64,000 nucleotides of DNA from Oryzias latipes (lineage: Eukaryota > Chordata > Actinopteri > Beloniformes > Adrianichthyidae): assembly GCF_002234675.1 (NCBI RefSeq), contig NC_019867.2, positions 31,376,614 through 31,440,613 on the forward strand, written 5' to 3'. Of the stretch, positions 34,157 through 44,500 are shown piece by piece. The translations under genes and the position numbers were made by a program. The notes below the pieces were generated by a model, which worked only from the letters and a program-made list of their open reading frames with translations, was not told where the DNA came from and made no database searches. The stretch's first letter is position 1, and each line of letters opens with the position of its first letter.

Positions 34157-34994
34157 TATCTCCAGAACTTACATTTTTTATTATTTTCACAGAGAAAATA
34201 ATATAAAAGGACCTGTAATTGTCTGTTTACTTTCCCCTGTCGGGTTTAGGCAGGACAGTAAGTTTTCAAAGTGGGTCACAGAGACACAGAAACCTCGCCT
34301 GTGCCGCTCATTCAGATGCAACTCCTGCAGCAGGAGTGTACCTGTTCAATCTCTGAAGGATGACATGAACCCAAACCTGGAGGCCTGATCATTACCAATG
34401 TTTTTGTAGAGCTCTTTCAAACAAATGAACCTGATGGCATTCAAATGAGACACATAGACACCGTTTCCGTGTAGCGATCAGGCTAAAAACATTTGGTGGG
34501 AGCTCATCACACATGCAGCTGGGACATCAAGCTATGAACACATGGCTTGTTCGTGAGCGGTCCGTGACCTAGAGCGGTCCGTGACCTAGATGCTTCCTGT
34601 GGGTCACCTGTGTGGCCCGATGAGGTTTGCCCATTTTCCACCTGCAGGCAGTCCACATCCACCCAAAGGGGCAGCTGGGACTGAGGTGTAAGACAACATG
34701 GTCTCATTGAAACTACTTAGGTTACAGAATCATTTCTTGATTTGAACTGTTGCTTTATGAATGAACTGAACGTTGCTCATTACGTTGAAGTTGTGGCATC
34801 TGGACTTAAGAGGTTTAGCCACTCATCCAGGTAGCTTCACCAGACGTGACGTACAATCAGAGCTAGAAGAGAGTTCATGACAGTTTAGAGAGACAAGGAG
34901 GAGTTTATCCTGACTGAAAAAAAACTTGGCTTCACGGTGCAGTTTCAGGGATTATCCATTGCTTTGGTGTCGCTGTGTAGTTTTTGCTCGATTG
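34157..34994. other. intergenic, no gene seen
   Basis: No supported gene. A short direct duplication of GAGCGGTCCGTGACCTAGA sits at about 34556-34590. Confidence 0.45.
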
Positions 34995-35208
34995 TAACCC
35001 TTGTGCTATCCTAGGCACTTTAACGTTGGGAGTTGGGTCATCTAGACCCACTAGACAGTGCTCTGAACCTTTTTTCTTCAATGATTTGTGATCTTCACTG
35101 GTGTCCATGGATTACATGAAATCTTTCCACCTTTATCCACCTTTGTCATGGTAGGAAGAACACATCAATGGAAGGGGGGGGGGGTCATCTAAGATAGCAT
35201 AAGGGCTA
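34995..35208. mobile_element. piggyBac-like MITE, copy E, next to myosin promoter
   Basis: Left end CCCTTGTGCTATCCT intact, right end altered (AAGATAGCATAAGGGC), TTAA no longer exact. It ends about 220 bp before the TATA-like box of the myosin light chain gene. Confidence 0.85.
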
Positions 35209-35426
35209 AGCAAGGCTGTGGGGGGAGGGGGGCATTCTTTGTCGTTTGGACTGATTGTGGAGTCAGGCTTTTGAAGGGCTGTTGGGGTGGCTGAGCCAGA
35301 CACATCCACTCCTGTTCAGGCTTGTTCTTATCTTCTGAGTGCTTCTATTCCAGGCTTCTTCCATCTTTGGTCACACGTTGCTCCCCTCTGTGACTTCATC
35401 GATCCCCCCCTTGCTCCCCCCACCTC

Positions 35427-35435
35427 CAATAAAAG
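35427..35435 (+). promoter_or_regulatory. TATA-like box of myosin light chain gene
   Basis: CAATAAAAG lies about 50 bp before the ATG at 35485, which leaves room for a short leader of roughly 25 nt. A GATA-type site (CTTATCTT, 35329-35336) lies about 100 bp upstream. Both are suggestive of a muscle promoter; neither is proven. Confidence 0.5.
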
Positions 35436-35484
35436 CTGGACAGCAACGGACCAAGCAGAAAGATCCCTCCATCCTTGACGCAGC

Positions 35485-36078
35485 ATGGCTCCAAAGAAAG
35501 TGGAGCCCAAGAAGACGGAGGTGAAGAAAGTGGAGGCGAAGAAAGAAGAGCCTCCACCTCCCCCCAAGCCTGCAGAGCCGGAGCCCAAGCCACCGGAGGT
35601 GGACCTGAAGAGCATCGTGGTGGAGTTCACTCCCGACCAGGTGGAGGAGTTCAAAGATGCCTTTTCCCTCTTTGATCAGACTCCCACGGGGGAGATGAAG
35701 ATCACCTACGCTCAGTGTGGCGATGTCATGCGCGCTCTGGGACACAATCCCACCAACGATGAGGTGCTGAAGCTGCTGGGCAGACCGAAGGCCGAGGAGC
35801 TGAACGTCAAGCTGCTGGACTTTGATAACTTCCTGCCCATGCTGCAGCATGTGGCACGCTCCAAGGAGCAGGGCACCTTTGAGGACTTTGTGGAGGGCCT
35901 CAGGGTTTTTGACAAGGAGGGCAATGGCACGGTGATGGGGGCGGAGCTACGCCACGTCCTCGCTACTCTTGGAGAGAAGATGACGGAGGATGAGGTGGAC
36001 CGTTTGATGGCTGGACAGGAGGACGCAAACGGACACATCAACTACACCGAGTTTGTCAAACACATTCTGGCCGGGTAG
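35485..36078 (+). CDS. myl4-like: intronless essential (alkali) myosin light chain, MYL4/MYL3-like
   Basis: A single uninterrupted frame of 197 residues encodes a full-length essential myosin light chain, the subunit that wraps the lever arm of the myosin heavy chain in striated muscle. The start [10 protein letters not shown] opens a Lys/Pro/Ala-rich N-terminal extension (residues about 1-45), typical of the long A1-type cardiac or atrial chains and thought to contact actin. EF-hand-like modules follow at about 51-85 ([18 protein letters not shown]), 125-160 ([20 protein letters not shown]) and 165-197 ([20 protein letters not shown]), ending at the usual length. MYL genes normally have six or more coding exons; this one has none broken, so it is a retrocopy or a gene that lost its introns. 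Codon use is strongly GC-ending and the frame is intact, with a TATA-like box and poly(A) signal, so it is probably expressed. MYL3 versus MYL4 ancestry is not settled. Confidence 0.93.
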
Positions 36079-36129
36079 AGCATGGAGCCCCGCCCCCCCG
36101 TGACGCTCGCAGATGTTGTCTCTCCATCA

Positions 36130-36135
36130 AATAAA
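36130..36135 (+). terminator. poly(A) signal of myosin light chain gene
   Basis: AATAAA 52 bp after the stop codon. No poly-A remnant or target duplication is seen after it. Confidence 0.75.
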
Positions 36136-36914
36136 GCAACTTGAGTGATTTTTGAGTCTGACTTTGAATGATGGTTTGGTAAATAACAAGGGTCTGCTCT
36201 GCATGTGGCTGCAGGTTTTAGGACTTGAAACAGACAAACGGGGAGTTGCAGGCATTCCAAACAAACTCCTAAATACTCTCTGAAATTATTATTTACAGAA
36301 GCTCTGTTGTTATTAACTCATAAAACCAGTTCTGACACCAGTTCATCTCAGAGTTCAACCGATTATCAGCCAGGCCCATATTTGTTATTTTGACGAGAAT
36401 CGGCATCTGTCTTTGTTTAATCCAACGTGATTTTATGTTTATAGAAAATGTTTCTGATCTTTTAGTTCATCTCACAGAGTATGGGTGAGGGTGGGGGGTA
36501 TTCACGCAGAGGGGGCAATTATGCAACCCCTTCGGGTGCTGATTGGTCTTTACAGTGCAGAGACCCCAGATTAATGTGTGTGTGTGTGTGTGTGGGGGGG
36601 GGGGGTTGCTCTTCCTCCAAAGACTGCAGCTGCTGAGACCTTTGCAGGCTTCATGTCGTCCTGAAAACCCACCTTACTCACTGGCTTTAATACGTTTCAG
36701 TTTAAGATTTATTCAACTCCTTCATATATTATTTATTTCCTTTTATGTGTTTTTGTGCGGCAGTTTTGCAGCTTTTTGCTGTTTGTGCAGCACTTTGGGT
36801 TCCATTCAACTTGTAAACGTACCATACAGATAAAATGACTAGTAGTTAGTATGACTTGACTTGGGACGTTTGCTTTTCTCAAACGATGACTTGACTCACT
36901 TGGTTTGCCCCCAC
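36136..36914. other. intergenic, no gene seen
   Basis: Contains a (TG)n plus poly-G run at about 36572-36605. No coding support. Confidence 0.5.
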
Positions 36915-37896: not shown

Positions 37897-38523
37897 TCAC
37901 GCCTGGCTGACAGATCTGCTATGACTCTCCGGCTTTGCAGCCATCTTTGTGTTGTGATCGGCCAGCTGGGCGTAGAGCCGGGACTTGAGGAAGCGCGGGT
38001 AGCTGTCCGTCTCCATCAGACTAAAGATCTGGTCCTGGGCCAACTGGAAGGAGGTGGGGGTGACACCCAGTCGCAGGCTCTGGTTGGTCATTTCCCGGAC
38101 GGACGCGTCCACATTGACCTGTTCGCAGAGCGCACTTGTGTCACATGAGCAGGCGTGAACCAGTCGTGCTGACAGACAGCTTACCTGTCGCGCCGCATTC
38201 GCAGAAATAAACTCCTCCTGGATTTTTACAGCCCTGGCAGCCATTTTACTGAAGGGGCGTGTATTCTTGAATCTCTCTACGGCCAGCCAGAAGTCCAAGT
38301 TCTCCTCGCTGAACTCTGACCTCAGGAAGTGACGAAATACCGCCAGGCCATCTGACCAATAGGGAAACAACAGAGCAAAAGGTGAAGGGAGTGGACGGAC
38401 TTTCCCAGGCTCCTCCCCTTCCTGATTGTTCACTTTGCACTAAAGAAGGGGTGTTCCTTACACTGATTGGTCAGCAGAGCCTCCAGGCTCTCCGCCCACC
38501 TCCTCACCTCCGCTGAAGATGGT
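37897..38523 (-). CDS. rgs3: rgs3 exons for the RGS domain and C-terminus
   Basis: Three exons: 38523-38462, 38351-38185 and 38118-37897, ending in TGA. They encode [39 protein letters not shown] and [13 protein letters not shown]. The Glu-Asn of SEEN, the Asn of VNVD and the Asp, Ser and Arg of DSYPRF match residues that contact the G-alpha switch regions in RGS4, so the domain looks catalytically competent. The introns are only 110 and 66 bp. Confidence 0.95.
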
Positions 38524-41500: not shown

Positions 41501-44500
41501 AGAACTGTGCAGAGTCAACTTCCACTGACAACGGGACAGAAATGTTTGCAGATGGCTCTTCTCACATCCCCCCTATCCCTCTGTCTGTGCCTGCTGTCCA
41601 CACGCATCAGCATCACCACAACGCAGAAAACCCGGAGATCTGCTACTCAAGAGAGAAGATCTGCTGTCAGACAGTCACAGACGGGGAACGGCGCAGTACC
41701 TGGTGACTGTGACCGGTCTCCGTGTTGACCAGCTGGAGCTGGATGTTGTCATGGAGACAAAGCCGGACTCGAACTTTCTGTTCCATGCTGAACGCCTCCA
41801 AACTGAACAGACAGCGCCAGCAGCTCTGCGAGTTCTGCAGGAAGTAGATGTGGAGCGGTTCTGATGACACTGCAGGGAGACACAAGCAAAGGCAAAATCC
41901 TGACAGCTGCTGATGGTGGCTCTGGGATTCATCCACATGGAACATTCAGTCTTTCAGGTCAGGGGAAATGAGGACTTCTCTGGGGGGGGGGCTTCAGGTT
42001 TGTATCCTGATCTCCAGGAGGACCACCAGCCTTTTAAATGTTTGTCTCTTTCTCCTTTTTTGGAACAAGTCTGGCAGAAATTGTACAAATAGATAAAACT
42101 GTTTTTTTTGCTCCATTTCTATCAGTTCAAAACAGAGTCACACGTACATTTGCATGAAAAAATAAAAAGCCTTTCTCACTTTTCAGCTCTGGGACTTGTT
42201 TTTCTTTTTAGGATACAGGATACTTTCAGGATACTATAAACTGACCAGTCAGATGCCTCGGTAAAAAGGATGTGGTCTCACCTCCAATGCTATAAAAATT
42301 TGATGAATTTTGTGGAAGGGGTCTGGACATCCAACTAGCTCATTTCTAATTGGCGAGAGCGGTTTCCATAGAAACTCAGACTGACTCGGACCAGTTACTG
42401 CTAACTGACGTGGTCTGGTTTCAACATCCGGGTCGCCAAAAAAATGGCGAGTGAACGAACTTTATATGGTTGGAGCCAGACGTGAGTCATTTTCCATGGG
42501 TGAGGTCCCACCAACTCACTCCCGTTCTTGGACAGTCCTGTTTTTTTCCAATGTTGTTCAGATGTTTGTCTGTCTTCTCTGAGTCCTCAGGAATCTGGCT
42601 CTGCAGCAGCTTTCAGAGTCATTTCAGCCTTTCACCGAAAACTCTGGATCACATGTGGCGCATCTGTCACTCCGTGAAACACACAGTCGTGTTGCAGTAA
42701 ACTAAAAAGTGAAAAAGCATAAAAGAATTCTAACAAAATTTCCCCTAAGATTCTTGGTCAAACTTGTTTTGATGAACCCAAACAGATTTGAACCACTTGG
42801 GTTCAAATCAAGAGAATGAACTGGTTTGATCTGACGGATTCTGACCACTAAGGTCGAGTTATTTCTACAATGTTTGATATAAAAGTCCTCATTTTTAACA
42901 AAAACATTCTTTTCTAACCTAGACAAACTGATTTCATCATTTACATGGAATGGAAAGACTGCCCGCATTCGCAAAAATATTTTACAATACCACAAAGATT
43001 ATGGGGGGGGGAATGTCACTTCCCAATTTCCAATACTAATACTGGGCTGCAAATATCCGTACATTGCTTCATTGGCTAGAGACATCAAGTTCTAGGGAAC
43101 CTAAATGGTTATATCTTGAATGAATGTCATGTCAATCTGCCTCTGCCACTCTCTGCTTTGTTCAACAATACCACTGTCGCAATCTCTCGACAAAATTTCA
43201 CAGAACCCAATAGTTAAACATTCAATTAAGATCTGGGCACAATTTAGGAGAAGCCTGGGCCTTAAAAATATGTAGATATATGCCCCAGTTGTGAAAAATA
43301 TTCTGTTTATCCCTGCTATAACTGATAAGTCTTTTACAAATTGGTCCGCAAATGGTCTGAGAACCCTGAAGAATCTGTTCATCGAAGGTCAATTTGTTTC
43401 ATTTCAGAGACTAAAAAGGGAATTTAGAATTCCCGATGTCCACTTCTTCAGAGACCTTCAGTTTAGAAGTTTTCTATCTACCACACTCACTTATTTCCAC
43501 TCGCGACCACCAGCCTCACTTTTTGAAAACATCTTGACCTTTAATCCACAATCAAAAGGATTCATCGGAAAAATCTACACAGCAATCAGCTCATCCAACA
43601 CAGATCCACTGACTCATAGCAAAATAAGGTGGGAAGAAGATTTGGCTACAGACCTATCAGAGGATGTATGGCAGACTGCTCTTCAGAATACCTATTCATC
43701 CTCAATATGCTTAAGACAAAGGGTTATACAATTCAATGTGGTTCCCAGACTGCACTGGTCCAAAGTAAAGCTAGCTAAAGTCAAACCAGACCGTAATGTT
43801 AATTGTGATCGATGTGAAACGGAACCAGGTACAAGGTCACATGTGTTTTGGTTTTGTCTGACACTGGGGGCCGTTTTCTGGCACAACTTCTTTCTGATGC
43901 ATTGGGGACACACGTTGCTCCTGAGGCTTTAATTGCGATATTTGGTGTATCAGAGTTTTCTCTGCGGCTTCCTAATACATCCAAAAGTGTAATCGCCTTC
44001 ACTACACTTCTGGCCAGAAGGCTCATCCTCCTACACTGGAAAAAGAACCAACTGCCTACTTTTAGGACATATCTTGTTGATCTAATGTGCCATCTTACCT
44101 TTGAAAAAGTCAGATTTTCAATGAAGGGATGTACTGCAGGGTTTTTTAATGTGTGGCAGCCACTTCTGAGCAAGATCAAAGATTTTGATCCATCGCTTCT
44201 TTCTGAGGGGTAACAGTGTTACTCCAATTGGAAAAATTTGCGTTTATTGTATTGAACTATTTTTCTTTTATGGTGCAACAGGCTGGGTTTGCTTGTTTGT
44301 TTGGGGTATAAAAAAAGACAAAAGTTTGAATGTCTTTTACACTGCATATGTTGCTGAATACTCAAATAAAATGAAACTTAAGTTAAAAAAAAAGATATCA
44401 AAGTCACACACACATGCACAGGCATGCAGTCAGAACAAGAGGGGGGGTACCTTCTCTGAGCTTCACCGTGTTCAGGTACAGGGGACTCTGGAGGACATTA

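Follow-up and report, generated by a model that had tools for sequence, protein, structure and literature searches.

How did a complete essential myosin light chain gene come to occupy a single exon in the genome of the medaka, Oryzias latipes? The gene lies on contig C9, in the 64,000-nucleotide stretch of DNA that was analysed as a whole (hereafter the window; C9:31376614-31440613, in a genome of 734 Mb and 25 contigs). A first-pass annotation had suggested that it may be an old, domesticated retrogene. The evidence assembled below supports this reading: the gene is intronless and intact, is under purifying selection, lies away from its spliced relatives, and forms a pair with a second copy on what we take to be its partner chromosome from the teleost genome duplication.

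A full-length A1-type light chain

The open reading frame on C9 runs from ATG to TAG over 197 codons with no internal stop (Table 1), and the frame is thus as intact as had been claimed. In phmmer searches of the PDB, residues 1-196 of the predicted protein matched Myosin light chain 3 entry 9ya8 (E 3.3e-90) and residues 1-197 matched Myosin light chain 3 entry 5n69 (E 9.4e-89), with the MYL1 (best E 1.2e-72) and MYL6 (best E 9.5e-71) families ranking lower; the similarity to MYL3 is far above chance. The Pfam domain EF-hand_7 passes its cut-off at residues 140-193. The core also contains a two-residue TP loop insertion common to MYL3, to MYL4 (represented in our alignment and tree by one provisional sequence) and to a spliced medaka gene on contig C17; the MYL6 and MYL1 types lack it. 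Full-length homology, the long Lys/Pro-rich extension and the TP loop insertion identify an A1-type essential light chain. Judged by these features, the protein is predicted to be an essential light chain of sarcomeric myosin, with a presumed role in muscle. Codon 184 of the C9 copy (window 36034-36036) encodes His, against Cys in all seven relatives in the comparison.

Table 1. Features of the C9 light chain locus (window coordinates)
Feature	Position	Strand	Remarks
Weak TATA-like element CAATAAAAGC	35427..35436	+	48 nt before the ATG
Essential myosin light chain CDS, A1-type (MYL3/MYL4-like), single exon, 197 aa	35485..36078	+	ORF, phmmer, Pfam
Lys/Pro/Glu-rich N-terminal extension, about aa 1-46, as in the long A1 type	35485..35622	+	aligned to the MYL3 extension
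EF-hand-like core	35623..36075	+	alignment, Pfam
AATAAA polyadenylation signal	36130..36135	+	begins 52 nt past the stop codon
RGS-domain ORF of rgs3	37897..38433	-	nearest neighbour found, 1.8 kb from the C9 gene; anchor common with C12

Signals and surroundings of the C9 gene

The C9 gene had been credited with its own TATA-like box and AATAAA. The polyadenylation signal is present, but the upstream element is weaker than claimed, and no TATAWA was found within 1 kb upstream. As the first-pass annotation stated, no trace of a poly-A tail or target duplication is left: no direct repeat of at least 10 nt flanks the gene on both sides within 34800-36600, and runs of A in the 600 nt past the stop codon are 4 long at most. 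A poly-A remnant and a target-site duplication are marks of young retrocopies and do not define old ones; at the age proposed below, such marks are expected to have decayed. A scan of 1 kb upstream for muscle motifs found one MEF2 and one CArG match on C17 and neither motif on C9 or C12; the scan was run without a shuffled control, and we draw little from it.

Domain matches confirm the neighbours named at first pass. The gene sits between kazald (IGFBP and Kazal domains) and ciz1 (PF23330) on one side and rgs3 on the other; an Ig match near kazald falls below the Pfam cut-off. The DNA about 280 bp upstream of the C9 gene (window 34996-35207) is an interspersed repeat. It is about 210 bp long, has inverted ends resembling CCCTTGTGCTATC / GATAGCACAAGGG and looks like a small DNA transposon. 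The C17 light chain gene also contains it, in its intron 1 (stretch L016, 3627-3837), and partial copies are suggested near 2.9, 14.6, 27.1 and 29.8 kb of the window and on C12. Elsewhere in the window, positions 271-1253 form a repetitive tract, probably a minisatellite, in which several frames are open and show PGAV, RFLG and RNRP repeats, and an ORF at 43291-43929 with a zf-RVT match below the Pfam cut-off is probably a retrotransposon remnant.

A second intronless copy and the spliced relatives

A genome search revealed a second uninterrupted full-length copy at C12:11262021-11262626. It encodes 202 residues, is 77% identical to the C9 gene and has TATAAA at -94. With mammalian MYL3 (PDB 5n69) as the query, these two intronless genes again ranked first across the genome (74% and 70%, nearly full length), the remaining 27 matches being only partial in coverage.

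The C17 gene was the only spliced gene of the MYL3/MYL4 subtype found. It has five coding exons and four coding introns, one in phase 0 that follows codon 36 and three in phase 1 that follow codons 45, 95 and 153; all four are absent from the C9 and C12 copies. Placed on the C9 gene by hand from the alignment, these introns would fall inside continuous codons at about 35619/35620, 35647/35648, 35797/35798 and 35971/35972. Together with the intact frame and the end-to-end alignment to MYL3, this bears out the earlier description of a whole 197-residue chain in one exon. At its end, the C17 gene runs on to the stop codon (L016 5721-5827) where the MYL6-type gene on C7 has one more exon, and by this comparison C17 seems to have lost its last coding intron.

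The MYL6-type genes on C7 and C5 and the MYL1-type genes on C21 and C2 (type names assigned by eye) are all in separate exons. Two of the seven essential light chain loci seen are thus intronless, in a list based on the 38 and 41 scored candidates of two genome searches, which a gene in an assembly gap would escape. The placing of the MYL6-type genes on C5 and C7 matches the Ola5/Ola7 pair given in PMC3986909. Matches on C13, C15, C22 and C24 look like calmodulin by eye, and a weak match on C3 was likewise set aside as a spliced calmodulin-like gene. Searches of general genome-contig and viral-contig collections confirmed no relatives. The first-pass annotation had named an ancestrally intronless family in fish as a finding that would speak against its reading. 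In the lineage of the C9 and C12 copies, the lack of introns does appear to predate the teleost duplication, but the family as a whole is not intronless, as the genes on C17, C5, C7, C21 and C2 are spliced.

The same comparison bears on how the introns disappeared. A spliced gene could have stayed in its place and been stripped of every coding intron there, as might happen through conversion with a cDNA. Such an event would leave no retroposition scars, as is the case here, and the reading-through at the place of the last coding intron of the C7 gene indicates that intron loss does occur in the family. We nevertheless regard this route as quite unlikely, as at least four introns would have to go and an ancestral spliced gene would have to have stood beside rgs3, whereas spliced relatives were found only at unlinked loci (C17, C5, C7, C21 and C2). 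Introns missing relative to a spliced relative and a locus unlinked to it are the features of a retrogene.

Age and selection

A comparison of the C9 and C12 copies over 197 codons gave 37 differences at first, 26 at second and 106 at third codon positions. By the NG86 method, pS is 0.757 (saturated) and pN is 0.154, falling to 0.109 in the core (152 codons). A dN/dS comparison had been proposed at first pass; for this pair, it yields low nonsynonymous change, while the saturation of silent sites precludes a finite ratio. Both copies are intact under purifying selection, and the intact frame and selection are those of a functional gene. When an abundantly expressed gene has a copy in one exon, that copy is, on its face, a classic processed pseudogene. 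Recent processing, or an assembly artefact derived from cDNA, is nonetheless of negligible probability for the C9 gene, given the saturated silent sites and the intact frame. A near-identical spliced gene was not found, the core identity of the spliced genes to either copy being at most 78% (73.9% for C9 and 76.9% for C12 against the C17 gene).

It could also be argued that the C9 copy, although intact, has drifted to another role or is decaying and is no ordinary muscle gene. It departs from otherwise invariant columns at six places (R65Q, Q87H, A92D, V97L, I123V and C184H) and the C12 copy at one, in a count among seven relatives of which three are near-identical MYL3 rows, and the lack of TATAWA, MEF2 and CArG matches in the 1 kb upstream points in the same direction. 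By the same count, however, the spliced C17 gene departs at eight such columns. None of the relative-rate tests is significant (15 v 10, 14 v 11 and 18 v 10; p 0.42, 0.69 and 0.18, the third set against the provisional MYL4), the low core pN speaks for constraint, and C12 is also without a MEF2 or CArG match. We consider such drift unlikely.

Relationship of the two copies and the genome duplication

Trees of the EF core were built from 11 sequences with the provisional MYL4 and from 10 without it (supports given as SH-aLRT/UFBoot). Both trees unite the C9 and C12 copies, with modest support (80/68 with the provisional MYL4, 82.5/76 without). The two copies share the motif INYT.FVKHIL, which reads INYEAFVK(H/Y)IM in C17 and in the three MYL3 rows. 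MYL3 and MYL4 group without the two copies (87.6/72, in the tree with the one provisional MYL4), and the placement of C17 is almost unsupported (41/36; 0.4/44). The search for a multi-exon parent proposed at first pass has produced a spliced gene of the same subtype, which the trees place with almost no support. C17 may be MYL3, MYL4 or another duplicate.

The surroundings of the two copies were compared. Among 37 listed matches to the RGS domain of the window, the second-best lies at C12:11916977-11917465, and the gene there is RGS3 (PDB entry 2oj4, 208.9 bits; next RGS8, 147.7 bits). Gene order and strands agree between the two contigs, with RGS3 lying 1.8 kb from the light chain gene on C9 and 654 kb from it on C12. 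Two papers pair chromosomes 9 and 12 of medaka as products of the teleost duplication (PMC2711117; PMC3986909). We apply this pairing by taking contigs C9 and C12 as medaka chromosomes 9 and 12; provided that contig numbers equal chromosome numbers, the two copies lie on paired chromosomes, as expected of ohnologs. RGS3 is the one shared neighbour among the three tested: ciz1 had no second match in the genome and kazald no match on C12, a pattern that loss after duplication would also give. When the ORFs of the 64-kb window were compared with those in 98 kb of C12, no gene anchor besides the light chain was seen, and the other matches were repeat-like. The flanks of the two copies do not align beyond chance-length matches, except for one 32-bp downstream match in opposite orientation, as is expected of an old duplication.

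Two independent retrocopies of one parent that landed on C9 and C12 would also lack introns and have non-aligning flanks, and the distance of RGS3 on C12 would then be no surprise. This explanation is very improbable. Against it stand the grouping of the copies, their common motif, and the presence of RGS3 beside both, arranged alike, on two chromosomes known to be a duplicated pair.

Proposed origin of the intronless pair

The data presented above have led us to a model in which there was one retroposition near rgs3 before the teleost duplication, with two functional retrogenes as its outcome, and we consider this model probable. An A1-type light chain gene of the MYL3/MYL4 subtype would have yielded a spliced mRNA that was reverse-transcribed, and the cDNA would have been inserted near rgs3 before the teleost-specific genome duplication, which would then have copied retrogene and rgs3 onto the present C9 and C12, both copies being kept intact by purifying selection. 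The protein is most likely an ordinary essential light chain that would clasp the lever arm of the sarcomeric myosin heavy chain, while its Lys/Pro-rich N-terminus would contact actin. The N-terminal extension of A1-type chains is described as binding actin (PMC10777021). We infer the route by retroposition and its date before the duplication from the comparisons above, and myosin binding and muscle expression from likeness to known light chains.

Functional intronless genes are already known in teleosts, among them troponin T (PMC1919359) and opsins (PMC10339062). The intronless troponin T gene (iTnT), described as apparently teleost-specific and present in zebrafish, fugu and sea bream (PMC1919359), likewise encodes a sarcomere protein, although of another protein family. 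The intron-less teleost opsins (rhodopsin and Opn4), again of another family, are presented as old ray-finned-fish retrogenes still in use; they were dated by comparing bichir, sturgeon and gar (PMC10339062), whereas the C9 and C12 copies come from one genome. In amphioxus, a single-coding-exon copy of the spliced SYCP1 gene was kept working and its spliced parent was lost (PMC5803294). The C9 gene resembles SYCP1 as a kept retrogene, the loss of the parent being a feature of SYCP1. Among its own relatives, it is like MYL3 and MYL4 in its full-length alignment, N-terminal extension, TP loop insertion and EF-hand-like core, and differs in the lack of coding introns and its location beside rgs3.

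Possible replacement of the spliced genes

A more far-reaching reading, which we offer as a tentative possibility, is that the intronless copy assumed the essential light chain role of heart and slow muscle before the duplication and that spliced MYL3 and/or MYL4 were then lost from their ancestral places. Three observations are compatible with it: a mammalian MYL3 query finds both intronless copies best, C17 was the only spliced gene of the subtype found, and CCDC12, a neighbour of human MYL3, is on C16, where neither of two genome searches gave a light chain match. A spliced MYL3 at that place thus seems absent. We had considered assigning C17 to MYL4 by its synteny with a CRH receptor gene about 7.5 kb downstream (L031 3297-3566; L032; further exons read by eye); this was dropped, as a 45-residue exon scoring 81.8 bits with CRHR2 and 78.3 bits with CRHR1 does not decide. 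The CRHR2-like gene near C17 is useful for tracing the duplication history of the light chain family.

The zebrafish genes myl13 and cmlc1, the latter presumably the lazy susan gene, are possible orthologues of the two copies. They are two separate entries among cardiovascular genes (PMC9375324), and myl13 is used as a slow-muscle marker (PMC8263256). The lazy susan mutant is reviewed as an MYL3 cardiomyopathy model with a stop at Y186 and a role for phosphorylation at S195 (PMC7717946). The step of 9 from Tyr to Ser agrees with INY...S of the C12 copy, whereas Ala occupies the Ser place in C9 and C17. Since mammalian MYL3 (5tby) has Ser as well, this agreement is a weak hint and does not test orthology.

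Fish genome annotations may already show a single-exon model for the gene. Among the open-access matches listed, no title or abstract opening was on the subject of the C9 and C12 light chain gene, and neither "myosin" nor "myl" occurs in the main text of a zebrafish retrogene paper (PMC3091775). The C9 and C12 copies may be the counterparts of zebrafish cmlc1 and myl13. If they are the working cardiac and slow-muscle chains, a core contractile protein of the fish heart would be made from retrogenes, the promoters of which would not descend from the mammalian MYL3 and MYL4 promoters. This would bear on the mapping of zebrafish MYL3 cardiomyopathy models to the human gene and would add to intronless troponin T a second sarcomere protein whose teleost genes have no introns.
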